Both the position numbers and the translations under genes were made by a program. From an uncultured Ectothiorhodospiraceae bacterium (GTDB lineage: Bacteria; Pseudomonadota; Gammaproteobacteria; UBA6429; Thiohalophilaceae), in assembly GCA_947260005.1 (NCBI GenBank), contig CAMYOL010000034.1, positions 1 to 64,000 of the forward strand: a stretch of 64,000 nt of DNA, given 5' to 3'. This document shows, one piece after another, positions 1 through 40,101 of this stretch (position 1 is its first letter; the number at the start of each line of letters is the position of its first letter). The notes below the pieces were generated by a model. It was not told the DNA's origin, made no database searches, and saw nothing but the letters and a program-made list of their open reading frames with translations.

Positions 1-483
1 TGCGGGTAATAAATGGTCTTCGATTTCTAAACAGGCACTGACATGAATCGTTGTCGGTATCACGTCATTCGAGCTTTGGCTCATGTTGACATGATCATTA
101 GGATGAACTTTCTCGCCGAGTTGTTGGCTGGCCAGGTTAGCGATCACCTCGTTGGCATTCATATTAGTGCTGGTACCCGAACCGGTTTGGAATACATCGA
201 TTGGAAAATGCTGATCATGTTCTCCACTGGCGACTTGCTCCGCAGCAAGTTGAATAGAGGATGCAATGTTTTCATCGAGTAAGGCCAGGCCATGATTAGC
301 GACTGCACAGCAAGATTTAACCAGGCCAAGGGCACGAATAAACGCGCGTGGCATGGTCAGGCCACTTATTGGAAAATTGTCAACGGCACGTTGGGTTTGA
401 GCGGCATATATAGCCTCAGCTGGGACTTGTAGTTCGCCCATGCTGTCTTTCTCTGTGCGATAGGATTTATCCTTGTTGCTCAT
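1..483 (-). CDS. fumC: Fumarate hydratase class II, N-terminal part (runs off window)
   Basis: Fumarase C interconverts fumarate and malate in the TCA cycle in the cytoplasm. Reading the minus strand from the ATG at 483 gives 161 residues with no stop before the window edge, about a third of the usual length of around 460. The segment carries the class II signatures [13 protein letters not shown] and [14 protein letters not shown], which hold substrate-binding and helix-capping residues of the fumarase/aspartase superfamily. An AGGGA ribosome site lies about 8 bases before the start. The catalytic GSSxMPxKxNP loop would be outside the window. The two signatures make confusion with aspartase or argininosuccinate lyase unlikely. 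Confidence 0.95.
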
Positions 484-607
484 TTATATTTTCCCTGTCG
501 TTATTATTATTTCGAATAAAAGACGAGCTGATATTATTTTTATCTAAACCGAGAGTATCGCACTCTATTGGACATGTTTAAATACTGGATTCTTCTATCC
601 AGGGGAA

Positions 608-657
608 AAGTGCCACGTGGGTAATGTGTCCCTTGGGGTAAAGTGCCCCTTGGGGTA
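608..657. repeat. Three tandem copies of a 16-17 bp unit
   Basis: Copies at 608-623, 624-640 and 641-657 follow the pattern AAGTGCCCCTTGGGGTA. The third copy is the most symmetrical (CCCC-TT-GGGG) and the first is the most diverged (CCACGTGG). They lie between the NTF2-like ORF and fumC, both on the minus strand, so they could be a regulatory or transcript-end element. No known binding protein is recognised. Confidence 0.6.
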
Positions 658-666
658 TGACAAACT

Positions 667-1089
667 TTAAAAGCTTGCCATGTCTAATTTTTTAACCCGC
701 CACGAATTTACTTTTTCTTCGATTACACGCCAGGTTTCATTGTCTTCAAATTCGAGCGTGATGTTTTTGTCTAATAAGACCATCTTTCCATCTTTACCCA
801 GCATGGTTTCCTGGGTATTAAAGCGCAGGCGCTTTGGGGTACTGCTGATCAAGCGAATCTCTTTAAAATTAATTGCCAGTAACGAGTCATTGCTAAATTC
901 ATTTTTGCGGCGTGACTTCCATTGCCGGTAATTAATGGTGTCCCTGGTCGGCATCCCATAAACCTGCACCCGTTTGGAAACCAGTTGCATATGCTTTTTT
1001 ATATCTTTTAGTTTGATACTTTGTGATATGTCGATGCACCAGGCGTGGATGGTTTGCTCGGCAATGAGGTGTTCGTTAACAGCGTTCAT
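667..1089 (-). CDS. Hypothetical protein, NTF2/SnoaL-like fold suspected
   Basis: A 140-residue soluble protein without signal peptide or membrane segment. The pattern of an N-terminal helix with HAWC, a middle YRQWKSRRKNEF segment, a strand-rich half and a final TWRVIEEKVNSW resembles the NTF2-like domains found at the C-terminus of some L,D-transpeptidase-type proteins. No catalytic residues can be named and the function is unknown. It sits alone between fumC and the divergent PDH operon, with the tandem 17-mer repeat just after its stop. The family assignment is by eye only. Confidence 0.55.
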   Translation of the reverse strand: MNAVNEHLIAEQTIHAWCIDISQSIKLKDIKKHMQLVSKRVQVYGMPTRDTINYRQWKSRRKNEFSNDSLLAINFKEIRLISSTPKRLRFNTQETMLGKDGKMVLLDKNITLEFEDNETWRVIEEKVNSWRVKKLDMASF

Positions 1090-1353
1090 ACCATATATAT
1101 ACTCTTTATTTGCACAAAGTATAAGTCGGCCATTACAATTTTCACTTTACGACTGAGACCATAAAAACGAATCTTTGTTGTAAGATAATGAAAAATAACA
1201 AGATTATGGGATATTCACTTGGCTATGTTAGGGGATTTCCTTGATTTTATAAGCGAAAAAGCCGATGATACGCGCCTTTCGGGCATAGGGCCGGTGAATA
1301 AATAATCAACAGCTCGCCCCTTATTTAAATACAAGCATTCTTAAGGATTTTCA

Positions 1354-2364
1354 ATGAACGACAGCGACAAAATACGTCTGTTACGCGACATGATTTTCTA
1401 CCGCCGTTTTGAAGATAGGTGTTTCGAAGCCTATGTTGAACGCAAGATTGGCGGCTTCTTACATTTGTACTCTGGTCAGGAAGCGGTAGCCACAGGCGTG
1501 TTGGAAATGGCCAACGTCGGCGTCGGAGAGAAAGGCGATTATGTGATCACAGGTTATCGTGATCATGTGCATGCATTAAAAGCAGGTGCTCCGGCAAGAG
1601 AAATTATGGCAGAGCTCTACGGTAAAGAAACGGGCTCGTCTCGAGGTCGTGGTGGATCCATGCATATCTTCGACCCAACCGCGAATTTCATGGGGGGGTA
1701 TGCGCTTGTTGGTCAACCCTTCCCATTGGCTGCCGGTTTAGCATTAGGTTGCAAGCATAAAAAAACCAACCAGATTGCGATTTGTTTCCTGGGTGATGGT
1801 GCAAATAATCAGGGTACCTTCCATGAAACTTTAAACATGGCCAGTGTCTGGAATCTTCCCGTCTTATTCGTTTGTGAAAACAATGGATATGCCATTGGTA
1901 CCCATATCGATCGATCTACTGCTCAAACCGATCAATACAAACGGGTTGATACGGCTTATAACATTAAATCAAGTCAGCATGATGGTATGGATATCGATAT
2001 CGTAATGGAAGAGGCCAAGAAGGCCGTTGATTATGTCCGCAATGAACAGAAGCCTTATTTTATCGAATTTATGACCTATCGTTATCGTGGTCACTCGATG
2101 TCGGACGCAAAAGGTTATCGTACCAAGGAAGAAGAGGCTGAGTGGGAAAAACGTGATCCCATTAAGATACTTTCTGATCGTTTGATTAAATCAGGTGCGC
2201 TTAAACAGGCCGATATCAAAAAAATGGAAAATGAAATCCACGATGAGATCGAAAATGATGTGATCAAGTTCGCTGAGGAAAGCCCTGAACCGGATGTGGC
2301 TGACCTGAACAAGTACGTATTGGATGACAATCCTGATCCTCGTTGGATCGGGCCCCTAAAATAA
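1354..2364 (+). CDS. pdhA: Pyruvate dehydrogenase E1 component, alpha subunit
   Basis: The thiamine-diphosphate-binding half of a heterotetrameric (alpha2beta2) E1 that decarboxylates pyruvate and passes the acetyl group to lipoyl-E2. The 336-residue length is typical. Visible signatures are YRDHVHALKAG, the SRGRGGSMHIFD segment, the ThDP motif starting GDGANNQG (about residue 147) and ending near ENNGYAIGT, and the phosphorylation-loop-like YRYRGHSMSD. It is the first gene of a PDH operon and is followed 32 bases later by the beta subunit. AcoA-type or branched-chain E1 alpha are alternatives, but the neighbouring E2/E3 and the sequence favour pyruvate. This is the split E1 type, not the homodimeric AceE usual in E. 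coli. Confidence 0.92.
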   Translation: MNDSDKIRLLRDMIFYRRFEDRCFEAYVERKIGGFLHLYSGQEAVATGVLEMANVGVGEKGDYVITGYRDHVHALKAGAPAREIMAELYGKETGSSRGRGGSMHIFDPTANFMGGYALVGQPFPLAAGLALGCKHKKTNQIAICFLGDGANNQGTFHETLNMASVWNLPVLFVCENNGYAIGTHIDRSTAQTDQYKRVDTAYNIKSSQHDGMDIDIVMEEAKKAVDYVRNEQKPYFIEFMTYRYRGHSMSDAKGYRTKEEEAEWEKRDPIKILSDRLIKSGALKQADIKKMENEIHDEIENDVIKFAEESPEPDVADLNKYVLDDNPDPRWIGPLK

Positions 2365-2396
2365 CACAGCAATAATATCCTAAGAAGAGAATTATT

Positions 2397-3377
2397 ATGG
2401 CAGAAACAGCATATTGGGAAGCGATTCAACGCGCCCACGATGAAGAAATGACTAACGATCCATTAGTGATTGCGATGGGTGAAGATATTGGTGTCGCGGG
2501 TGGTACTTATAAGGCGACAGCCGGTCTATATGATAAGTATGGCGCGGAGCGAATCATTGATTGTCCAATTTCTGAAAACTCTTACACCGGAATTGGTATT
2601 GGTGCCTCTATGATCGGCATGCGTCCGATTATTGAAATTATGTCGATAAACTTTGCATTATTAGCCCTGGATACATTGGTTAATGCGGCCGCTAAGATTC
2701 GTTACATGTCAGGAGGACGAGTGAGTTGTCCGATTGTGATGCGTACTCCAGGTGGTACCGCTCATCAATTAGCGGCACAACACTCGGCACGTTTAGCGCG
2801 TATGTTTATGAGTACTTCGGGCTTACGGGTGGTCACTCCACGTGGACCGTTAGATGCTTATGGCATGTTGAAATCAGCCGTGCGGTCTAATGATCCGGTG
2901 ATCATTATCGAACATGAACGTATGTATAATTTAAAAGAAGACATTCCCGAAGAAGAGTACTTCCGACCATTAGAGGGCGCCGAAGTGGTACGCCAGGGTG
3001 AAGATATTACTTTAATCGGTTATAACTTCTCGGTACATCTATGCCTGGAAGCTGCTAAAAAACTCGAGGCAGACGGAGTGAGCGCCGAGGTCGTTGATCT
3101 TCGTTCTTTAAAACCAATTGATCGTGAAACTATTCGTCGTTCAGTTGAAAAAACTCACCGTGTATTAGTAGCAGAAGAAGATGAGGCACCGGTTGGTGTT
3201 GGTTCAGAAATTATTACCGGCATTATGGAAGATTGTTTCTTTGCCTTAGACTCTCAACCTGTACGAATCCATGCGGCTGATGTGCCTGTCCCTTATAACC
3301 ATAAACTTGAACAAGCGGCGATCCCGGATGTGGATGACGTCTATCAAGGTGCGTTAAAGGCATTAGGTAAAATCTAA
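2397..3377 (+). CDS. pdhB: Pyruvate dehydrogenase E1 component, beta subunit
   Basis: The 326-residue beta partner of E1. It starts MAETAYWEAIQRAHDEEM and shows the acidic ThDP-activating region GEDIGVAGGTYKAT, the central GGTAHQLAAQHS segment and the C-terminal transketolase domain ending VPVPYNHKLEQAAIPDV. An AGAAGAGAA stretch precedes the ATG. It is co-directional with the alpha subunit and the downstream E2-E3 gene, so the three genes probably form one transcript. No inactivating change was noticed. The specificity for pyruvate over acetoin is inferred from context. Confidence 0.92.
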   Translation: MAETAYWEAIQRAHDEEMTNDPLVIAMGEDIGVAGGTYKATAGLYDKYGAERIIDCPISENSYTGIGIGASMIGMRPIIEIMSINFALLALDTLVNAAAKIRYMSGGRVSCPIVMRTPGGTAHQLAAQHSARLARMFMSTSGLRVVTPRGPLDAYGMLKSAVRSNDPVIIIEHERMYNLKEDIPEEEYFRPLEGAEVVRQGEDITLIGYNFSVHLCLEAAKKLEADGVSAEVVDLRSLKPIDRETIRRSVEKTHRVLVAEEDEAPVGVGSEIITGIMEDCFFALDSQPVRIHAADVPVPYNHKLEQAAIPDVDDVYQGALKALGKI

Positions 3378-3429
3378 CGATTGTTAATTAATAGGTACCT
3401 TCGCTCTTGTTGGGAGTGACTTTAGGTAA

Positions 3430-3466
3430 GGGGATTCATATTCCCTATTCCTCTCTTAGTAGAGAG
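3430..3466 (+). other. Two small hairpins between pdhB and the E2-E3 gene
   Basis: The 116-base gap contains an imperfect stem GGGGAT/ATTCCC and directly after it CTCTCT-TAGT-AGAGAG (3451-3466). Neither has a T tract, so they look like processing or stability elements, not terminators. They may set the ratio of E1 to E2-E3 transcript, but that is inference. Confidence 0.3.
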
Positions 3467-3493
3467 GAGAACTAAATTAAAAGAGAATTATAA

Positions 3494-6400
3494 ATGGCAG
3501 ACCCCTACATCATTAAAATGCCCCAACTTTCTGACACGATGACAGAAGGTACGGTGGTGACCTGGGAAAAAGAAGTCGGAGATTTCATTGAACGTGGCAG
3601 CATTGTCGCAACGGTTGAGACCGATAAGGCCATCATGGATGTGGAAGTATTTCGCGAAGGTTATCTTTCCGGTCCTTTAATCGAAGTTGATTCAGTGATT
3701 CCTGTTGGCGAAGCGATGGGTTATATCGTTGCAAGCGAAACGGAGGTTAATCAATCTGGTGATACAGCTGCCAGGGACTTATCTGGCGATGATGATCCAA
3801 CGGTGGAAATGCAACAACCGAAGATTGAAGCACCAGGCGATAGCTACATGATTAAAATGCCACAACTCTCGGATACCATGACCGAAGGTGTTGTGGTGAG
3901 CTGGGATAAAGAGATTGGCGATCAGGTCAGTCGTGGAGATGTGGTTGCTCAGGTCGAAACGGATAAAGCGATCATGGATGTCGAGATTTTTCGTGATGGA
4001 ATCTTGTCTGGACCGTTAGCGGATGTCGACAGTGTCGTTGCCGTGGGTGACTCGATTGGCTTCCTGGTACAAGATGCGTCGGCTGTCATCGATAGCAAGG
4101 CTAAATCAACGGTTGGTGCTAAGGTCGAATCATCTGTCTCAACGCCTAAACCAGAACCCGCTGGTACCGCGAAACCAAAAACAAGAATTGCTGCGATGCC
4201 TTCTGGTGCGACACCCTCACCGAGACCTAAGCAAGGTATGGCGACGCCTTATGCTCGCCAACTCGCCGGTGCACATGGTATCGATTTAAATGCGATTACC
4301 GGCAGTGGTGTGGGTGGGGCGATTGTTGCGTCAGATGTATTAAACGCTGAAGTACAAACCTCCGCACGTCGTGTCTTCCAGGTTCCTGGTCAGGGCCGTG
4401 CGATGAATGCAATGGAAAAAGCCGTTGCCCATAACATGGAATTCTCGCTGTCGATGCCGTTGTTCCGCGTTACAGTGAACATCGATCCCAGTGTATTAAA
4501 GACCAGCTCTAAAGGAAAAGGTGTGTCGTTAACAGTGGCCTTAGCCAAGGCGGCGGCATTAGCTATTAATGATTTCCCTATCGTCAATGCGGTATACCAG
4601 CACGAAGATCGCATTGTCGAGCGTGAACAAATTGATATCGGTCTGGCCGTAGAAACTGAAGGCATGGGCTTAGTGGTGCCAGTATTACGCGATGTCGCTA
4701 ATCGTGATATCACCAGCCTGGGTGAAGACTGGGTTGACCTGGTGCAACGAGCTCGAAATCGCCGCTTAAAACCGGATGAATATTCCAACCCTACTTTCAC
4801 AATTTCGAATATGGGGATGATGGGTGTCTCGATGTTTGATGCGATTCCTTCACCCGGTACGTCCGCTATCTTTGCGATTTCCACGCTGGGTCCTGAGGGT
4901 ATGCCCGTGACGGTGACGGCCGATCACCGAATTGTGAATGGTGCAGATGCGGCCAAATTCTTAAATGCGTTTAAAGAATATGTTCAGAATCCGACCTGGC
5001 TTGATGCCAGCGTTACGGCTGTTCAAAATCAGCCGGTGCCATCTGGTTTCACCCTGGAAAAAGGTCAATACGACTATGATGTTGTTGTTATCGGCGGCGG
5101 ACCAGGTGGTGAAGATGCGGCTCGGGATCTGGTCGAGCATGGCTACAAAGTGGCGATGGTTAACGATGCGCCGTTTCCCGGTGGAGAATGTCTGTGGCGT
5201 GGATGTATTCCTTCCAAGGCCTGGCGTGCGGCGGCAGATCGAATTCGTGATCGTGCTGAGGACAGTCATTTAGGAATCGAAGGGACCAAATCGGCCAAAC
5301 TAAACTGGAAAAAATTAGAAGCAACGCGCAAGAACGTGCTTGAAACGCGTGGCGAAATGGCGCTAAAAACAGATAAAGGCGTTAAAATTGACGTCATTCA
5401 AGGCTATGGGCGCTTTGAGGATTCTCATACCGTGTTTGTCGACACGGGGGGAAATAGTAAAGATCCTCATCAACGCGCAGAGACGGGTAATGGTAAAAAA
5501 GGTAAGAAAATCAGCTTTGCTGCGGCGATTATCGCGACGGGTGCACCCCCATTTGTGCCACCTATCGAGGGTGCCCATGAAGGATTGGAAACTGGAGGTA
5601 TTTTGACTTCAGATACCGTCTGGGGTCTAACCGAAGTGCCGAAACGTTTGGGTGTGATTGGCGGCGGTGCGATCGGCGTCGAAATGGCACAGATTTTCCA
5701 GGATTTCGGGACTAAAGTCGTGCTTTTCGAAGGACAGGATAGAATTCTGGCTGAAGTTGAAAAAGAAGTCGCGAGTCAGTTGACGGCCGTATTGAATACC
5801 GACAAACGCCTGACCATTGAAACCAGCGCAAAGATAAAGTCGATCAAAGGTGAGCCAGGCAATATGAAGCTTAGTTTTGAAGACAGTGAGGGTAAATCAC
5901 GCAACTTTGGTTGTGACTATGTGATTATGGCCACCGGCAAACGTCCTGTAACGGATGGTCTGGGTCTTGAAAAGGCCGGCGTTAAAACGGAAAAAGGTGT
6001 CATCGCAGCGGATAATCGTTGCCGGACTTCAGCGGATAACATCTTCGCAGTTGGCGATGTGATCGGTGGGTTAATGCTTGCTCACACGGCAGGCCAGCAG
6101 GGGCGCGTAGCCGCAATGAACATCTCTGGTGAGGCGGCTCAATATGATGAGGATAAAGACTGCGGCGTGATATTTACTCGCCCAGAAGCGGCCTTCGTTG
6201 GGCTGTCGACTGAACAAGCCAAGGCGAAAGGCATTGATGCGGTTGAGATCAAAGTCCCAATGAGTATCGACGCTAAGGCCATGATTAATAACGAAACTCA
6301 TGGTCTAATCAAACTAGTGGCTGACAAGGCCTCACATCGGATTGTCGGGGTCCATTTCCTCGCCGATCATGCCGATACGCTGATTGGTGAAGGAGTGATG

Positions 6401-6538
6401 ATGGTGGCTGGAAACATGACCTTAGAGCAGGTGGGTAATGCTATTCATCCTCATCCAACCCAAACAGAGCTTTTTGGCGATCTAGCTCGTCGGTTGGCAT
6501 CGCGTTTGCGTAGAAGTGAACGACGTAAAAAGAAATAG
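3494..6538 (+). CDS. Fused dihydrolipoamide acetyltransferase (E2) and dihydrolipoamide dehydrogenase (E3)
   Basis: One 1014-residue polypeptide covers both remaining PDH activities. In order it has lipoyl domain 1 (ETDKA, lipoyl Lys45), lipoyl domain 2 (Lys158), a Pro/Ala-rich linker, the peripheral-subunit-binding domain (about 249-286), the E2 acyltransferase core (about 297-515, His478 in DHRIVNG), then a full E3 from about residue 526. The E3 part has the FAD motif VVIGGGPGG, the redox pair Cys566/Cys571 in CLWRGC, the NAD site GVIGGGAIGVE, a second FAD motif and the HPHPTQTE end (His987, Glu992). E2 transfers acetyl to CoA and E3 reoxidises dihydrolipoyl groups with NAD+. The usual Asp of DHRxxDG is Asn482. 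No stop or frameshift separates the halves. A REP-like palindrome follows directly. Confidence 0.93.
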   Translation: MADPYIIKMPQLSDTMTEGTVVTWEKEVGDFIERGSIVATVETDKAIMDVEVFREGYLSGPLIEVDSVIPVGEAMGYIVASETEVNQSGDTAARDLSGDDDPTVEMQQPKIEAPGDSYMIKMPQLSDTMTEGVVVSWDKEIGDQVSRGDVVAQVETDKAIMDVEIFRDGILSGPLADVDSVVAVGDSIGFLVQDASAVIDSKAKSTVGAKVESSVSTPKPEPAGTAKPKTRIAAMPSGATPSPRPKQGMATPYARQLAGAHGIDLNAITGSGVGGAIVASDVLNAEVQTSARRVFQVPGQGRAMNAMEKAVAHNMEFSLSMPLFRVTVNIDPSVLKTSSKGKGVSLTVALAKAAALAINDFPIVNAVYQHEDRIVEREQIDIGLAVETEGMGLVVPVLRDVANRDITSLGEDWVDLVQRARNRRLKPDEYSNPTFTISNMGMMGVSMFDAIPSPGTSAIFAISTLGPEGMPVTVTADHRIVNGADAAKFLNAFKEYVQNPTWLDASVTAVQNQPVPSGFTLEKGQYDYDVVVIGGGPGGEDAARDLVEHGYKVAMVNDAPFPGGECLWRGCIPSKAWRAAADRIRDRAEDSHLGIEGTKSAKLNWKKLEATRKNVLETRGEMALKTDKGVKIDVIQGYGRFEDSHTVFVDTGGNSKDPHQRAETGNGKKGKKISFAAAIIATGAPPFVPPIEGAHEGLETGGILTSDTVWGLTEVPKRLGVIGGGAIGVEMAQIFQDFGTKVVLFEGQDRILAEVEKEVASQLTAVLNTDKRLTIETSAKIKSIKGEPGNMKLSFEDSEGKSRNFGCDYVIMATGKRPVTDGLGLEKAGVKTEKGVIAADNRCRTSADNIFAVGDVIGGLMLAHTAGQQGRVAAMNISGEAAQYDEDKDCGVIFTRPEAAFVGLSTEQAKAKGIDAVEIKVPMSIDAKAMINNETHGLIKLVADKASHRIVGVHFLADHADTLIGEGVMMVAGNMTLEQVGNAIHPHPTQTELFGDLARRLASRLRRSERRKKK

Positions 6539-6545
6539 ATTACTA

Positions 6546-6609
6546 GGGGTCAGAGACGTATTTTTGGATTCCCTTGGCGAAGGGCATTCAAAAATACGTC
6601 TCTGACCCC
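6546..6609. repeat. REP-like long palindrome, copy 1
   Basis: Perfect 21-base arms at 6546-6566 and 6589-6609 begin and end with GGGGTCAGAGACG and its complement. They enclose a 22-base loop that itself pairs as CCCTT-ggcg-AAGGG. It starts 7 bases after the E2-E3 stop, so it may also end transcription or protect the 3' end. The same GGGTCAGAGACGTATTTTT core recurs at 24893-25005. Such GGGGTCAGA palindromes are typical of REP elements mobilised by RAYT transposases, but no transposase is in the window. Confidence 0.85.
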
Positions 6610-6650
6610 AATTAACGCCAATCTGGCACAAAATCTGCTTTTAACCGGGT

Positions 6651-7925
6651 ATGATTTTAAGAATTGTACTTATCATGTCCCTGCTGGCGGCTATCGCGAC
6701 CGTGATGGCGGCACCTCCTCGATTCAGTGGTTACCAACTTGAAAGTCGTGAGCGAGCGAAAGCCGCTGCTAAGGCGGAAGCTGAGGCAAAGTCTGAAGCC
6801 GAAGCAAAAGGCAAGGCGGATTCGGCTTCAAATACGAAAACCAATGAAGCCGGTCAGGTGACCGCTGATGATAAGACAACCACTTCAAATAACGATCCGC
6901 AAACTAATAACGCTTCTACACAGGCGGATCAGTCCAAGTCCGTCACGAACACCGCAACCGCCAGTACTGAACAACCCGTTAATACTAAAAAACGTGAATC
7001 GTGGTTTAGTCGGATGTTGAGCAGAAACAAGAAGCCTGAACCGGTTAAAAAAACATTTAAGCAACCTGATGATTTAGTGATTACCGAAGATCATCATAAG
7101 GATCCGTCAGAATCATTAGGCATCGCTGGTTTACATCGCTATTCTGCTGGGCTACACGAATTTTGGAAAGTCGACTCATCCAGATCATTGTGTTCGATGA
7201 AGCAAAATATTAATAACTATGGACATGTTGAATTTCGTCAGGGCGTAGGCCAGCCACTTGAATTTGCGTTGTTTGTGGCTCATCCCCCCGCAGGTATTGG
7301 CCGTGCTCACCTTCGTACCGAGCCACCTGAGTGGCGGCACTTTAACAAGGCCAGAGATCTGGGTTTTATCGAGCTTGAGCCGGGTGAGCGTGCCGTGACT
7401 GCCTCCACGGAATGGTCACGTCGGCTGTTTCTTGAAATGAGTGAAGGCATGCAACCGGTAATGCGCTATTGGGATGCAGCCGATGCGGCGGATGACATGG
7501 AAGTGATGTTGTCGGCGTTAAACTTTCAGGAAAGTCTGGATCTGTTCCATCGTTGCATCGGGCAGTTATTGAAATATGATTACCGGAGCAGTAAACGTAC
7601 GATTGTCCATTTCCATGAAGACAGTTCAAAACTGCGTACCAAGGCGCAGCGACAACTGGACGAAGTGCTGGAAATTCTAAAGGCCGATGATGGTGTTAAA
7701 CAAATTGACCTTGAACTCTATACTCACAGCAAAGGACTGGTCCGATATAATTTCCGCTTAGCAACACGCAGAGCGCGAGCGGTGCGGGATTATTTGATTA
7801 AGCGTGGTATCGACGAAGACAGTTTGTTAATTAAGATTCACACTAAACGTAGTCAGGATCTGAAAAAGCTCGGCTACAAACCGACCGATGTGCACATCGT
7901 CCTACAACGCAAGGTGGCGAAGTAA
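6651..7925 (+). CDS. MotY-like OmpA-family envelope protein
   Basis: A 424-residue exported protein with an N-terminal signal peptide ending near VMAAPP. A charged low-complexity spacer follows (about 25-130, rich in Ala, Lys, Glu, Thr and Asn). The middle domain (about 165-320) resembles the MotY N-terminal domain (PPEWRH, LNFQESLDLFHRCIGQLL). The C-terminal OmpA/MotB-type peptidoglycan-binding domain runs from VHFHEDSSKL through RLATRRARAVRDYLIKRGI. MotY proteins form the T ring of Na+-type flagellar motors, but no flagellar gene is nearby, so a general wall-anchoring role is possible. It stands alone between the PDH operon and convergent argG. Confidence 0.7.
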   Translation: MILRIVLIMSLLAAIATVMAAPPRFSGYQLESRERAKAAAKAEAEAKSEAEAKGKADSASNTKTNEAGQVTADDKTTTSNNDPQTNNASTQADQSKSVTNTATASTEQPVNTKKRESWFSRMLSRNKKPEPVKKTFKQPDDLVITEDHHKDPSESLGIAGLHRYSAGLHEFWKVDSSRSLCSMKQNINNYGHVEFRQGVGQPLEFALFVAHPPAGIGRAHLRTEPPEWRHFNKARDLGFIELEPGERAVTASTEWSRRLFLEMSEGMQPVMRYWDAADAADDMEVMLSALNFQESLDLFHRCIGQLLKYDYRSSKRTIVHFHEDSSKLRTKAQRQLDEVLEILKADDGVKQIDLELYTHSKGLVRYNFRLATRRARAVRDYLIKRGIDEDSLLIKIHTKRSQDLKKLGYKPTDVHIVLQRKVAK

Positions 7926-7959
7926 AAGCAATCGTTATTTAAATTGAGTTGTGACTACT

Positions 7960-9174
7960 TTATTTGGATTGTCGCATCGCCGCGATACGCATACGTAAGG
8001 CATTGAGTTTAATAAAACCGTGGGCATCGGATTGATCGTAGGCACCCGCATCATCTTCAAAAGTAGCAATGGCTTCGTCAAACAGACTGTCGGTATCTGA
8101 TTTACGACCTTCGACAATCACATTACCTTTGTATAATTTTACGCGCACAAATCCGTTTACGGTTTTTTGTGAGGCATCGATCATCTCTTGCATCATTTGT
8201 CGTTCAGGCGCCCACCAGTAACCGTTATAGATCATGCTGGCGTATTTTGGCATTAACTCATCTTTAAGATGCGCGACTTCACGATCAAGAGTTAACGATT
8301 CCATTGCACGATGGGCCTTTAACATGACGGTGCCGGCAGGCGTTTCATAACAGCCGCGTGATTTCATGCCGACATAACGGTTTTCAACGATGTCATCACG
8401 TCCAACGCCATTGGCTCCGGCCACTTTATTTAGATATTCCATCACTTTTGCCGGTGACATGGCCTGACCATCAATCGCAACAATGTCACCTTGTTGGTAT
8501 TCGAGTTCGAGTATAGTTGCCTGATCGGGGGCCGCTTCGGGAGCCACACTCCAGCGCCACATCTCTTCTTCCGGACCAGACCATGGGTCTTCGAGCACCC
8601 CACCTTCATAAGAAATGTGCAATAAATTGGCATCCATTGAATAAGGTGATTTTTTACCTTTATTAAAATCCACCGGAATATCATGTTGCTTGGCATAGTC
8701 CATTAATTTTTCACGTGAGTTCAGATCCCATTCGCGCCAGGGAGCGATGACCTGGACATTTGGGCTTAATGCATAGGCCCCTAATTCAAATCGGACCTGA
8801 TCATTACCTTTACCCGTTGCACCGTGAGAGATGGCATCCGCCCCGGTTTGGGTGGCGATGTCGACCAGTCGTTTCGCGATCAGTGGACGGGCAATTGAGG
8901 TGCCGAGCAGATATTCACCTTCATAGATGGTGTTGGCGCGGAACATCGGGAATACATAATCACGGGCATATTCTTCGCGTAGGTCTTCAATAAAAATCTC
9001 TTTCACACCCATGGCTTCCGCCTTGGCGCGAGCGGGTTCAACCTCTTCACCCTGGCCAATATCGGCGGTAAAGGTCACCACCTCACACTGATAGGTGTCC
9101 TGCAACCATTTTAGAATGATCGAGGTATCCAGGCCGCCAGAGTAGGCGAGAACCACTTTTTTTACATCCGACAT
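7960..9174 (-). CDS. argG: Argininosuccinate synthase
   Basis: Joins citrulline and aspartate with ATP to make argininosuccinate, the penultimate step of arginine synthesis. The 404-residue protein starts at [18 protein letters not shown], which carries the N-type ATP pyrophosphatase loop SGGLDTS. Further signatures are [13 protein letters not shown] and [15 protein letters not shown]. The open frame extends 12 codons upstream to 9210, but GGGAG lies about 7 bases before the ATG at 9174, and family members begin there. It is transcribed alone. A strong terminator of the buf operon lies upstream, so it needs its own promoter in about 9175-9280. Confidence 0.97.
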
Positions 9175-9326: not shown

Positions 9327-9932
9327 TTATTCAGGATCGAATCGTTGTTTGATCCAGTAATCGATACTCGCATATCGACCTGCTCCAACAAAGAACAGCA
9401 CGAGTAGCATTAAGAAATAGGTGGCCGCAAATTCGATGCCGTTTTTGAGAATCGTAACGCTGCCATGCTCAGTTATATAGTCGTAGTTGCTATGTTCTTT
9501 TAAGATTTCGCGCGCCTTGCTTTTGCGTTCAGCTGCACCTTCTATCTTATCCATGCGCCATTCCCAGGGTACCGTTAAAGTTTGTTCAGGCAGGGCATGC
9601 CAGCCATTTTGCCAGTGGGCGGTACCAGCTGCGACGATCATGGTAAACATTAATGGGATGGCAAACCAACGCGTGGCCAATCCAATTAAGATAGCTATTC
9701 CACCCACAAATTCAGTTAGACCAGCAAGTGTGGCCATGAGCAGAGGTGCAGGCATGCCAAGTCCCCAATCGGGGTTGCCAAAGTAGGCTGCTGTGTCTTC
9801 AAGGCCGGTCAGTTTTCCATAACCGGCGACGATTAAAATGGGGGCAAGAAAAATTCTAAGCAGTAATGGGGCTAAAAAATCAATTTGCCGGGTCTTATCG
9901 AGTAGACCTTGCAGTTGTATTAGGACATTCAT
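9327..9932 (-). CDS. DoxX-family membrane protein, last gene of the buf operon
   Basis: A 201-residue inner-membrane protein with four hydrophobic segments, among them LLLRIFLAPILIVAGYGKL, LLMATLAGLTEFVGGIAILIGLA, FAIPLMFTMIVAAGTA and a late FLMLLVLFFVGAG. The GYGKL and EFVGG-type signatures fit DoxX. GGAGAG precedes the ATG. DoxX proteins regularly accompany DUF692/DUF2063 RiPP clusters, including HvfD of the oxazolin system. A role in redox chemistry or copper handling at the membrane is proposed there but unproven. It follows bufC by 42 bases and ends at a strong terminator. Confidence 0.85.
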   Translation of the reverse strand: MNVLIQLQGLLDKTRQIDFLAPLLLRIFLAPILIVAGYGKLTGLEDTAAYFGNPDWGLGMPAPLLMATLAGLTEFVGGIAILIGLATRWFAIPLMFTMIVAAGTAHWQNGWHALPEQTLTVPWEWRMDKIEGAAERKSKAREILKEHSNYDYITEHGSVTILKNGIEFAATYFLMLLVLFFVGAGRYASIDYWIKQRFDPE

Positions 9933-9974
9933 GGCACTCTCCTGTTAATTATTATGTTTTGTTAGACAGGCTTT

Positions 9975-10751
9975 TCAGGTTTTGTTCACACCAATAACTA
10001 CATCACGAGTTTTTAAATCATGAAGTATTTGCAAGCCACCCTGGATCACCACATCCGGATTCGGATGGTTAAGTTGTTCGGCGATACTGGTTAGCATTTG
10101 TTTGGAAGTGATATTCGAATCTTCAGAAAGGTACTGCAATAACTGAGCGGTAACCGGATTAATATCTAAGAAATGCACTTCGTCATCGGCATCACGATAG
10201 ACCACAAGATAAGTTGGTTGCTCGCCCGGTTGTTCAGGTATAAAGTCGGGACTGATTTCGTGTACGGGGTAATTATAATTCAGTGGCCAGGCCGTATTCG
10301 ATAAGACCGGAACACCTTCAAGCAAATCGCCGTCCACATCCACATTTGACAAATCATTCTCTATATCGGTAACGCTTAATGCCAGTTCTACCCATTCATA
10401 ATGAGCGAGTTCGAGCATAAATGGGTAATCGTCCTGTTCAGCTTCACGTTCAGTTTCCAGATATTTTAAAAACTCGCGCGGCATTTCCTGAAATAATGGC
10501 GTGGAGGCATGATGTTTTTCAAAGTAGTCACGGATCATACGATGCCATTTTTCATCATCGGTTAATGTTCGTAATACTGGATAGGCATTCGACATAAAAC
10601 CTTCAACGTTGTTATAAAATAACTCATTGTAGATTTTCATACGTCGCGCTTCGATGTCATTTGGGCGTGGGTATTTCGCCGGATTACGCACATGTTGAGC
10701 GAAGGCGTATTGGACTTGCTGAAAGTCGGGTGCTTTAGCCTCGTTGGACAT
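9975..10751 (-). CDS. bufC: DUF2063 RiPP partner protein (BufC/HvfC-like)
   Basis: A 258-residue soluble protein with the DUF2063 putative DNA-binding-like N-terminal domain (QQVQYAFAQHVRNP, RRMKIYNELFYNNVEGFMSNAYPVL). The C-terminal half ends in a winged-helix-like region (AQLLQYLSED, QMLTSIAEQL). In characterised MNIO systems this protein binds the precursor leader and escorts it to the DUF692 enzyme. Its start overlaps the end of bufB by 17 bases, which indicates translational coupling. No nucleic-acid role is implied by the old domain name. Family assignment is firm; the exact function is taken from homologous systems. Confidence 0.85.
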   Translation of the reverse strand: MSNEAKAPDFQQVQYAFAQHVRNPAKYPRPNDIEARRMKIYNELFYNNVEGFMSNAYPVLRTLTDDEKWHRMIRDYFEKHHASTPLFQEMPREFLKYLETEREAEQDDYPFMLELAHYEWVELALSVTDIENDLSNVDVDGDLLEGVPVLSNTAWPLNYNYPVHEISPDFIPEQPGEQPTYLVVYRDADDEVHFLDINPVTAQLLQYLSEDSNITSKQMLTSIAEQLNHPNPDVVIQGGLQILHDLKTRDVVIGVNKT

Positions 10752-11604
10752 GAGTGTGGTTCGCGTGCTCGCCGGCTTGTTCCCAACGTTGCTGGATTTC
10801 GTGGATGGTGTCGACCTCTTTAACTAACTCTGAAATCGGCGGTATATTAAAGTCACGTTCCAGTAGGGTAGGTATTACGCCATAAAATTCGTAACTTTTA
10901 TCGAGTAGCGCCCAGACCGGATCAATGACATCGGCGCCATGGGTATCCACTCTCAGATCTTCGGCTTCATTAAAATGGCCGGCAACGTGGATATAAGAAA
11001 TACGATCACCTGGTATCGCACTTAAGAATTCATAAGGGTCGTAACCGTGATTGATACTATTAACATAAATATTATTAACATCGAGCAATAATTTACAGTC
11101 AGCTTCATCGAGCACGGCATTTAAAAATTCAATTTCTTCCATCTGTTTGCCCGGTGCGGCATAGTAAGAAACATTTTCCATTGCGATAGGTTGTTCGAGA
11201 ATGTCCTGGACCCGTTTAATTCGGTCAGCAACATGAGACACGGCTTCTTCGGTAAAAGGAATGGGCATCAGATCATATAGATGGCCATCATCACTACAAT
11301 AACTTAAATGTTCACTGTAACAACGTATATTATGCAGTTTCAGAAAAGATTTAAGTTTATGCAAAAAGGCTTCATCGAGTGGGGCAGGCGAGCCAATCGA
11401 TAACGACAGCCCGTGGCAAACAAAGTCATGCTGTTCGGTGTAGGAACGAAATTGCTTTCCATAGCGACCACCGACACCAATCCAGTTTTCCGGGGCGACT
11501 TCGAGAAAATTCACTTGCGAAGGAAAGGGGTCTGCGAGGGAGTTCATAATCTCCCGTCGCAGACCGAGTCCTGCGCCATGAACAGGGTATGTTTTCTGTT
11601 TCAT
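10735..11604 (-). CDS. bufB: MNIO (DUF692) multinuclear iron oxidative enzyme
   Basis: A 289-residue TIM-barrel-type enzyme of the DUF692 family. MNIO enzymes use two or three irons and oxygen to modify cysteines of ribosomal peptides; in oxazolin/bufferin systems they make thiooxazole-type rings in EGKCG motifs. Metal-ligand regions can be seen: CHGLSLSIGS, CYSEHLSYC, MENVSYY, LLLDVNNIYVNS, HVAGHF with DTHG, and the LLERDFNIPP end. It starts 22 bases after the precursor stop and overlaps bufC. The substrate is very likely the adjacent EGKCG-repeat precursor. Confidence 0.9.
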   Translation of the reverse strand: MKQKTYPVHGAGLGLRREIMNSLADPFPSQVNFLEVAPENWIGVGGRYGKQFRSYTEQHDFVCHGLSLSIGSPAPLDEAFLHKLKSFLKLHNIRCYSEHLSYCSDDGHLYDLMPIPFTEEAVSHVADRIKRVQDILEQPIAMENVSYYAAPGKQMEEIEFLNAVLDEADCKLLLDVNNIYVNSINHGYDPYEFLSAIPGDRISYIHVAGHFNEAEDLRVDTHGADVIDPVWALLDKSYEFYGVIPTLLERDFNIPPISELVKEVDTIHEIQQRWEQAGEHANHTHVQRG

Positions 11605-11625
11605 GGTTTGACCTGGACCGCGTGC

Positions 11626-11964
11626 TTAACTACCGCCACACTTGCCTTCGCCACATTTACCTTCTTTCTTACCTTCTTTTTTCTTACCTTCGCCGCATTT
11701 TCCTTCGCCGCATTTTCCTTCTTTCTTACTTTCGCCGCATTTACCTTCTTTGCTTTTGCCATCGGCTTTTTTGCCTTCGCCACATTTGCCTTCGCCGCAC
11801 TTGCCTTCTTTACCAGCAACTTGCATATAACCGCTTTCAAGTTCGCTCATAGCAAATGGGTTATCACCAGCAGGAGCGGCAGTAGCGATATTGCTAGCTG
11901 CCATAGAAACAGCAAAAGTCGCACCTAAGGCGATAGAAAGAGGCTTAAGAATTTGTTTAGACAT
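11626..11964 (-). CDS. bufA: Bufferin/oxazolin-type RiPP precursor with seven EGKCG repeats
   Basis: A 112-residue exported precursor. It has a signal peptide (MSKQILKPLSIALGATFAVS, cleavage likely near ATAAPAG), the conserved NPFAMSELESGYMQVA segment that marks this precursor family, and a core of seven EGKCG modules spaced by Lys-rich linkers. All seven cysteines are in these modules, none elsewhere. GGAGAG lies upstream of the ATG. It is the first gene of the bufABC-DoxX operon. By analogy with characterised MNIO systems the modified protein goes to the periplasm and binds copper. The low-complexity DNA also gives long spurious frames on the plus strand. Confidence 0.9.
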   Translation of the reverse strand: MSKQILKPLSIALGATFAVSMAASNIATAAPAGDNPFAMSELESGYMQVAGKEGKCGEGKCGEGKKADGKSKEGKCGESKKEGKCGEGKCGEGKKKEGKKEGKCGEGKCGGS

Positions 11965-39323: not shown

Positions 39324-40101
39324 AATGATTCACTATAAATTTCTAATGACTTTTTTGTGCTTGTTAATTACTTCGTTCGGCTATGCACAGGATTTTAGTG
39401 CCCGATTACATTGGTCGCAACGCGTGGAATTAGGTTCTCCTGTTAGTGGTGTCGTCGAAAATGTATCGGTAAATGTCGGAGATAAAGTACAAAATGGCCG
39501 AGCACTTATTCAACTGGACAATACCGTGTTTAAGGCGCATGTTGATGAATTCAAAGCACAACTGATTAGCTCCCAGGAAGACCTAAAAGAGGCCGAACGA
39601 GAGCGAGATCGTGCGCTTGAGTTATATGACCGAACAGTATTGTCAGATCATGATTTACAGATCGCAAAAAACAACTTCAAAGCCGCAAGAGCTCAACTCG
39701 AACATATCCGGGCAAAATTGATTACCAGCCAGTTTAACCTGAAACACAGCACTATCAGTGCACCATTTGATGCGGTCGTATTACAGCGCGATGCTCAGCC
39801 GGGACAGGTGATTGCAACAAAATTTCGCCAGGATCCACTCATTGTATTAGCTGCGAGCGATAAAATGATAGCAAGATTTTATGTTGCAGAAGACAAACTC
39901 AAATGGCTTAGAATCAATAAAAATGCAAAAATTGTTGTAGACGGAGAAGGCTATCGCGGGAAAATAACTTCAATTGGACTAGAATTAATAACTGGCGACA
40001 CTTCGTTGACCGGCTCAGAAAAGGGCTACCCGGTCGAAGTGGAATTTTTGGTCGATAAATTATTACGCGCAGGTCGAACTGCAAAGGTTGAAATCGAGTG
40101 A
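39307..40101 (+). CDS. HlyD/RND-type periplasmic adaptor protein, short
   Basis: A 264-residue adaptor. A signal (FLMTFLCLLITSFGYAQ), a lipoyl-like domain (LGSPVSGVVENVSVNVGDKVQNGRALIQLD), a helical hairpin and the second lipoyl half (LKHSTISAPFDAVVLQRDAQPGQVI) are present. It is shorter than usual because the membrane-proximal domain is reduced. AGGAG lies 6 bases before the ATG at 39307, so this start overlaps the tolC gene by 17 bases. A pump would be needed elsewhere. Confidence 0.88.
   Translation: MRVKIKMIHYKFLMTFLCLLITSFGYAQDFSARLHWSQRVELGSPVSGVVENVSVNVGDKVQNGRALIQLDNTVFKAHVDEFKAQLISSQEDLKEAERERDRALELYDRTVLSDHDLQIAKNNFKAARAQLEHIRAKLITSQFNLKHSTISAPFDAVVLQRDAQPGQVIATKFRQDPLIVLAASDKMIARFYVAEDKLKWLRINKNAKIVVDGEGYRGKITSIGLELITGDTSLTGSEKGYPVEVEFLVDKLLRAGRTAKVEIE

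Follow-up and report, generated by a model that had tools for sequence, protein, structure and literature searches.

We analysed a window of 64,000 nucleotides (contig CAMYOL010000034.1, positions 1 to 64,000 of the forward strand; assembly GCA_947260005.1) from an uncultured Ectothiorhodospiraceae bacterium assigned to the family Thiohalophilaceae. The element under study is a gene at window positions 3494-6538 on the forward strand, a single unbroken open reading frame (ORF) of 1014 codons from ATG to stop, in which the E2 and E3 components of the pyruvate dehydrogenase (PDH) complex are joined. The genes and features at the locus are as follows, in window coordinates:

1354..2364, + strand: E1 alpha of pyruvate dehydrogenase (TIGR03182, 415 bits against a cut-off of 393.85; PF00676)
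2397..3377, + strand: E1 beta of pyruvate dehydrogenase (subfamily model NF006667, 369.1 bits against a cut-off of 321)
3494..6538, + strand: E2-E3 fusion gene (1014 aa, 108 kDa)
3512..3724, + strand: lipoyl domain 1 (PF00364)
3851..4057, + strand: lipoyl domain 2 (PF00364)
4241..4342, + strand: subunit-binding domain, residues 250-283 (PF02817; column counts)
4400..4996, + strand: E2 catalytic domain, residues 303-501 (PF00198)
4922..4942, + strand: E2 active-site motif DHRIVNG (motif reading)
4997..5068, + strand: E2-E3 junction, residues 502-525 (model confidence, junction lengths)
5069..6493, + strand: E3, dihydrolipoamide dehydrogenase (PF07992, PF02852; the best solved relatives are Lpd)
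5180..5218, + strand: E3 redox motif GGECLWRGCIPSK, residues 563-575, with Cys566/Cys571 (motif reading)
6446..6469, + strand: E3 motif HPHPTQTE, residues 985-992 (motif reading)
6470..6535, + strand: basic C-terminal helix LFGDLARRLASRLRRSERRKKK (helix in both predicted models; net charge)

Pfam identifies on this chain two lipoyl stretches, E3_binding (250-283), 2-oxoacid_dh (303-501), Pyr_redox_2 (528-870) and Pyr_redox_dim (891-995). The E2 half has the domains of a PDH E2, namely lipoyl domains, a subunit-binding domain and a 2-oxoacid_dh catalytic domain, with the lipoyl lysines located in ETDKA at residues 42-46 and 155-159. The E3 half contains the FAD/NAD fold, the CxxxxC redox pair and the C-terminal His-Glu, which we take to be the partner active-site residues carried by HPHPTQTE. 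An earlier note had read a complete E2 and a complete E3 in one frame. The ORF and its Pfam domains confirm this, and the lipoyl motifs, the Cys566/Cys571 pair and the HPHPTQTE end are all located as it described them.

To place the fusion among its relatives, we scanned species genomes, which returned 144 relatives, and read the best 80 of the 144 (loci are labelled L and genomes G). The E3 redox motif is in frame at all 80 loci. The E2 motif reads DHRxxNG at 79 of them and DHRVVTG in L081, so that the His of the HxxxDG motif of E2 is kept and its Asp is replaced by Asn or, in L081, by Thr; the stand-alone E2s that we read have DG at this position. Where the C-terminus is reached (75 loci), it carries HPHPTQTE in 74 cases and HAHPTQTE in one. 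The E2 His, the Ser-Asn, the redox cysteines and the His-Glu are invariant in a 59-row alignment. Two lipoyl motifs are present at 69 of the 80 loci, one at 10 and none at one, and five of these 11 poorer loci have an open 5' end. L020, L064, L072, L077, L078 and L081 each combine a complete 5' end with just one lipoyl motif, which suggests that the family varies in how many lipoyl domains its members have.

The genomic neighbourhood is equally uniform. E1 alpha and E1 beta lie upstream on the same strand in all 67 relatives with at least 2.3 kb of upstream DNA, the other 13 of the 80 being too short upstream to count. In these 67 the gap between the matches to the two E1 genes is 3-58 bases and that between E1 beta and the match to the fusion 7-819 bases (median 120). 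The gene downstream of the fusion is of the MotY/OmpA type by Pfam, and we take it to be unrelated.

The search for further E2-E3 fusions and their taxonomy, as proposed in the earlier note, revealed a conserved form found in many gammaproteobacterial families. By hand count, at least 80 of 370 gammaproteobacterial genomes have the fusion, in some cases only as pieces at contig edges; these 80 span 39 families, and their matches share 50 to 100% identity with the E2 core-E3 region. Next among the matches listed come a partial match in G291 (70%), which is an E3 piece at a contig edge, and G208 (54%); otherwise identity is at most 37%, and in the weak matches that we opened (L213-L215) E2 and E3 are separate genes. 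Among the named carriers are Thiohalophilus thiocyanatoxydans, Thiohalobacter thiocyanaticus and a metagenome-assembled genome (MAG) labelled Thiohalomonas denitrificans, and most records with the fusion are gammaproteobacterial MAGs; the records under the labels Desulfobacteraceae or Halobacteria probably result from misbinning. In a phylum-wide sample, drawn without class names and left out of the taxonomic mapping, the fusion was found in one of 150 genomes, the window's own, at E <= 1e-100.

Several candidate exceptions were set aside. Six relatives with internal stops had looked like split genes: L181-L185 are intact fusions in which the alignment overran the true end, and L186 (G364) is a contig-edge piece. 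Plasmid-borne fusions were also discarded, since eight of 10 among the matches listed are annotated with separate E2 and lpdA, and the two without such annotation, L179 and L180, have separate E2 and E3 frames.

Phylogenetic trees were built from a fusion set of 93 rows, 92 of them distinct, each against a small comparison set. All 88 fused E3 halves form one clade (support 0.94), as do all 93 fused E2 halves, though with a node support of just 0.20, and we read these clades as pointing to a single old fusion event. The fused E3 clade adjoins two unusual stand-alone E3-like proteins, L217 and L218, its closest outgroup in the compared set. Both proteins (L217 6927-8348, + strand; L218 6389-7861, - strand) have GGTCLFEGCIPSK. 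The L217 gene is flanked by genes that we take to encode phosphoketolase and phosphotransacetylase, while the L218 gene lies beside a presumed P-type ATPase gene.

One member of the family has only the E2 half. In G208 (L219 1587-2900, - strand), a fusion-family E2 ends right after the E2 core and is adjoined by E1-type frames. Because this E2 nests within the fusions, as sister to L038 (support 0.996), and because the genome contains a canonical Lpd (539 bits), G208 would represent a secondary loss of the E3 half.

We searched the window's own assembly (3.71 Mb, 81 contigs, 99.47% complete) for other components of this type, including the separate lpd that the earlier note had suggested looking for. 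The fusion is the only E2 match, with no second E2 in the assembly, and no free Lpd was found there: Pyr_redox_dim matches only the fusion and a 452-aa frame on contig C14. The latter was rejected as a second Lpd, scoring 670 bits as glutathione reductase against a cut-off of 480. A second E1_dh match beside that of PDH E1 alpha (26.7 bits, cut-off 22) is a transketolase. Outside the fusion, lipoyl/biotinyl domains over the cut-off belong to a biotin carboxyl carrier protein and to a frame best matching urea carboxylase; a match below the cut-off, at window 39424-39516, lies inside a resistance-nodulation-division adaptor protein. Contig C63 matches GCV_H and GDC-P, and its ORFs are, by our reading, presumably lipA, gcvT, gcvH, gcvPA and gcvPB, names without a Pfam match being assigned by recognition. 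Glycine cleavage requires an L-protein, which is lipoamide dehydrogenase. Since the genome search turned up no further lipoamide dehydrogenase, the fused E3 would also have to reoxidise the glycine cleavage H-protein, and gene content makes it the sole candidate L-protein. An inactive E3 half complemented by a normal lpd elsewhere, which was named earlier as a possible refutation, appears to be contradicted by the invariant active-site residues and the lack of a second Lpd in this assembly. A gene that we take to be thiol peroxidase-like (L115 9095-9586, + strand) stands between gcvPA and gcvPB of the glycine cleavage cluster.

A search of the window's order returned 24 genomes, all of one family. 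The fusion is present in 17 of them, counting G002, where it is cut by a contig end, and G015, where it is split across two contig ends. Eight of the 17 (G003, G012, G013, G014, G017, G018, G022 and G023) additionally encode a canonical Lpd together with a stand-alone E2 (397 to 455 aa), presumably that of 2-oxoglutarate dehydrogenase; the Lpd of G018 is split into two pieces at contig ends. This pair is missing from the other nine fusion genomes. A stand-alone E3-like protein of unusual type is present in two of these, G002 and G015. In the last seven (G000, G001, G004, G005, G016, G019 and G020), the strong matches listed beside the fusion are only glutathione reductase- or MerA-type proteins, three of which were typed by NCBIfam and the others by redox motif only, except for the 452-aa protein of G020, which was typed by length and score only. 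The second E2-type match in G002 (L216 6187-7674, + strand) is a frame that runs off a contig end. We take it to resemble an OdhA/KGD of actinobacterial type, with E2 running into an E1-like part, and it could be contamination of the assembly. GDC-P is found in all 17 fusion genomes and in 23 of the 24 overall. Four of the 24 encode stand-alone Lpds with lengths of 593 to 620 aa, and in a fifth (L212) a lipoyl motif precedes the E3 motif.

The fusion carries both active sites in conserved form, the E1 genes adjoin it, and no other E2 or Lpd was found. Given these features, we consider it probable that PDH E2 and E3 form one 108-kDa chain whose E3 also serves glycine cleavage and likely links E2 trimers. 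By homology, E1 from the two upstream genes would load acetyl groups onto the lipoyl arms, the E2 core would transfer them to coenzyme A, and the covalently attached E3 would reoxidise the arm with NAD+. Since E3 is covalently attached, its recruitment would be unnecessary, and the subunit-binding domain might be left for E1. The same E3 would additionally serve the H-protein, and its dimers would join the E2 trimers.

The region where the two halves meet bears most directly on assembly. E2 normally forms a trimer and E3 a dimer. The stand-alone E2s that we read end in LLL, ILLEI or similar, a knob motif absent from the fusions, which have Pro-x-(x)-Trp-hydrophobic at this position, followed by E3, with both the Pro and the Trp unchanged across 59 rows. 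According to the available part of PMC10415282, it is at this position that a C-terminal 3-10 helix links E2 trimers. The spacing between the E2 motif and the start of E3, measurable in 74 of the 93 fusion rows, is exactly 33 residues in 44 of the 74. The window's clade (L003-L020) has longer, Ala-rich junctions, with 41 to 59 residues from the E2 motif to E3. We modelled the E2 core-E3 region with AlphaFold2. The window model has a predicted local distance difference test score (pLDDT) of 85.1 and a predicted template modelling score (pTM) of 0.66, with pLDDT below 50 at protein residues 506-514 (217-225 of the modelled core). The short-junction relative L021 reaches a pLDDT of 88.1 and a pTM of 0.80, with a junction at about 87, which suggests a fixed E2-E3 arrangement.

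Because the junction to E3 replaces the E2 knob, the likeliest assembly would be E2 trimers linked by E3 dimers into a hexamer or closed cage, in place of a 24- or 60-mer core; taken by itself, this proposal has roughly even odds. The earlier note had predicted a 1:1 ratio and a changed core geometry; the first should hold if the chain stays intact in vivo, and the second is suggested by sequence and the single-chain models. Somewhat short of an even chance, and so tentative, is the complete picture, in which the fusion is rigid in much of the family, its E3 dimer acts as the two-fold connector of a hexameric or closed cage-like particle whose E2:E3 stoichiometry is fixed at 1:1, and this E3, as sole Lpd, serves the H-protein from within the PDH particle. 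It is possible, though less likely, that the fusion is active while its E2 part keeps the customary 24- or 60-mer core, from which E3 dimers would hang. Such a core would be compatible with the complete E2 catalytic domain; the 41 to 59 residues between E2 motif and E3 in the window's clade could let E3 swing clear, and the invariant Trp near the old knob position might itself act as a knob. However, the LLL/ILLEI-type knob has given way to a Pro-Trp stretch and the junction, and the 33-residue distance leaves little room for a free E3. Moreover, the comparable fusion OdhA is a hexamer: in the portion of PMC10415282 that we could consult, its E2 trimer domain, a 17-residue linker and a dimeric E1 build an 800-kDa particle.

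The identity of the E3 half was assessed from its fold and conserved residues. A Foldseek search of the PDB with the window model gave lipoamide dehydrogenases in 49 of the 50 listed rows and one mercuric reductase, with a target TM-score of 0.90 to the Lpd structure 6uzi. Glu746, presumably typical of NAD use, is invariant in 59 rows. The C-terminal tail of the fusions has a net charge of +3 to +9 (median +7, 87 rows), compared with -2 to +4 in stand-alone E3 rows, and a conserved basic C-terminal helix of the ARRLLSRLRRS type that was not seen in the stand-alone E3s read. This Lpd-like fold and the invariant Glu746 make it very unlikely that one half has changed its job, with E2 handling another acyl group or E3 being a different disulphide reductase, as do the E1 alpha and beta genes, which exceed PDH model cut-offs and lie upstream in every usable relative. 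What such a change would explain are the shared peculiarities, namely the Asn of the E2 motif and the CLWRGC and PTQTE of E3, and the fact that the fusion reaches no curated cut-off among the 25 best of 82 NCBIfam models.

Intracellular cleavage of the chain to give E2 and E3 as two proteins, which would make the fusion only a genetic one, is more improbable still: the predicted looseness of the window's junction would allow it, but the junction is short, of one length in most measured rows, and confidently folded in the L021 model. An assembly or sequencing artefact, such as separate genes masked by a missed stop or frameshift between residues 515 and 526, can be dismissed: nothing was found in its favour, and each of the 80 loci, which come from other assemblies, shows this frame again.

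Several points nevertheless weigh against a fusion that works as we propose. Asn replaces a usually conserved Asp in the E2 motif, and the E3 half falls below the curated Lpd cut-off (TIGR01350, 380.4 against 408.8), although this remains its best-scoring model. The proposed service to the H-protein is based on the absence of a rival candidate in an 81-contig draft. The longer Ala-rich junction and unconfident model make a rigid link to E3 less likely in the window's own clade, and G208, being without the E3 half, indicates that the E2-E3 fusion is not obligatory.

The subunit-binding domain supplies further points of this kind. The GR arginine and the lysine three residues after it are absent from all 93 fusion rows and present in all 12 stand-alone E2 rows, and a basic residue three before the arginine is found in 2 of 93 and 12 of 12, respectively; of the 12, two come from one gene and nine are of non-AceF type, with four other stand-alone E2s left unaligned. 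This loss is a clean marker of the fusion family. It is only weak evidence against E3 binding, given that 92 of 93 fusions retain the arginine of helix 1 (stand-alone rows: 7 Arg and 2 Lys of 12), that E3 binding has been placed mainly in helix 1 of this domain in published work, and that G208 also lacks the arginine and the lysine though it must use a free E3. The proposal that the domain serves E1 only thus fits the lost basic residues and is weakly supported, with the retained helix-1 arginine and the same loss in G208 speaking against it.

We compared the fusion with known systems. Lipoyl-E3 proteins, in which Lpd has an N-terminal lipoyl domain, likewise tie E3 covalently to a lipoyl domain, but they carry the lipoyl domain only, whereas the fusion has a whole E2. 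PDH with separate E2 and Lpd, as in Geobacillus and mitochondria, shares by homology the three activities, the E2 domain order and the E1 type; it differs in its separate E2 and E3, its knob and the greater number of basic residues in its subunit-binding domain. In the actinobacterial E2o-E1o protein OdhA/KGD, as described in the accessible part of PMC10415282, an E2 trimer domain is also fused C-terminally to another, dimeric enzyme component of its complex, and the canonical E2 trimer-trimer contact is lost, as we infer for the fusion from its sequence. OdhA/KGD differs in that it carries E1, uses 2-oxoglutarate and depends on lipoyl arms from another protein, while the fusion has its own. 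Pfam finds E3, and no E1o domain, in the C-terminal half of the fusion, which is not an OdhA and at most works analogously.

An E2-E3 fusion of PDH was not found described in our literature searches, whose coverage leaves out most subscription journals. The PDH operon of Thiobacillus ferrooxidans was reportedly published in the 1990s; any such fusion there could not be checked. Judged from the sequences, the fusion is real and conserved, and it appears new compared with the systems described in the literature searched. PDH-type complexes were long seen as one conserved architecture, from which actinobacteria were then shown to depart (PMC10415282, available in part). An E2-E3 fusion conserved across many gammaproteobacterial families would add a second such departure, this time with another enzyme incorporated into the core, and would make pyruvate oxidation and glycine cleavage depend on a single immobilised E3. 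The fusion probably alters how the PDH machine is built and may force its E3 to serve a second pathway.

A search for RNA elements within window positions 1-8000 gave no matches. Elsewhere in the window, an operon at 9327-11964 on the reverse strand encodes a DoxX protein, a DUF2063 protein and an MbnB/TglH/ChrH enzyme, all labelled by Pfam, together with a 112-aa secreted-looking peptide that has EGKCGEGKCG repeats and no Pfam match. We take this operon to have the look of a peptide-modifying, possibly copper-binding cluster for a ribosomally synthesised and post-translationally modified peptide.

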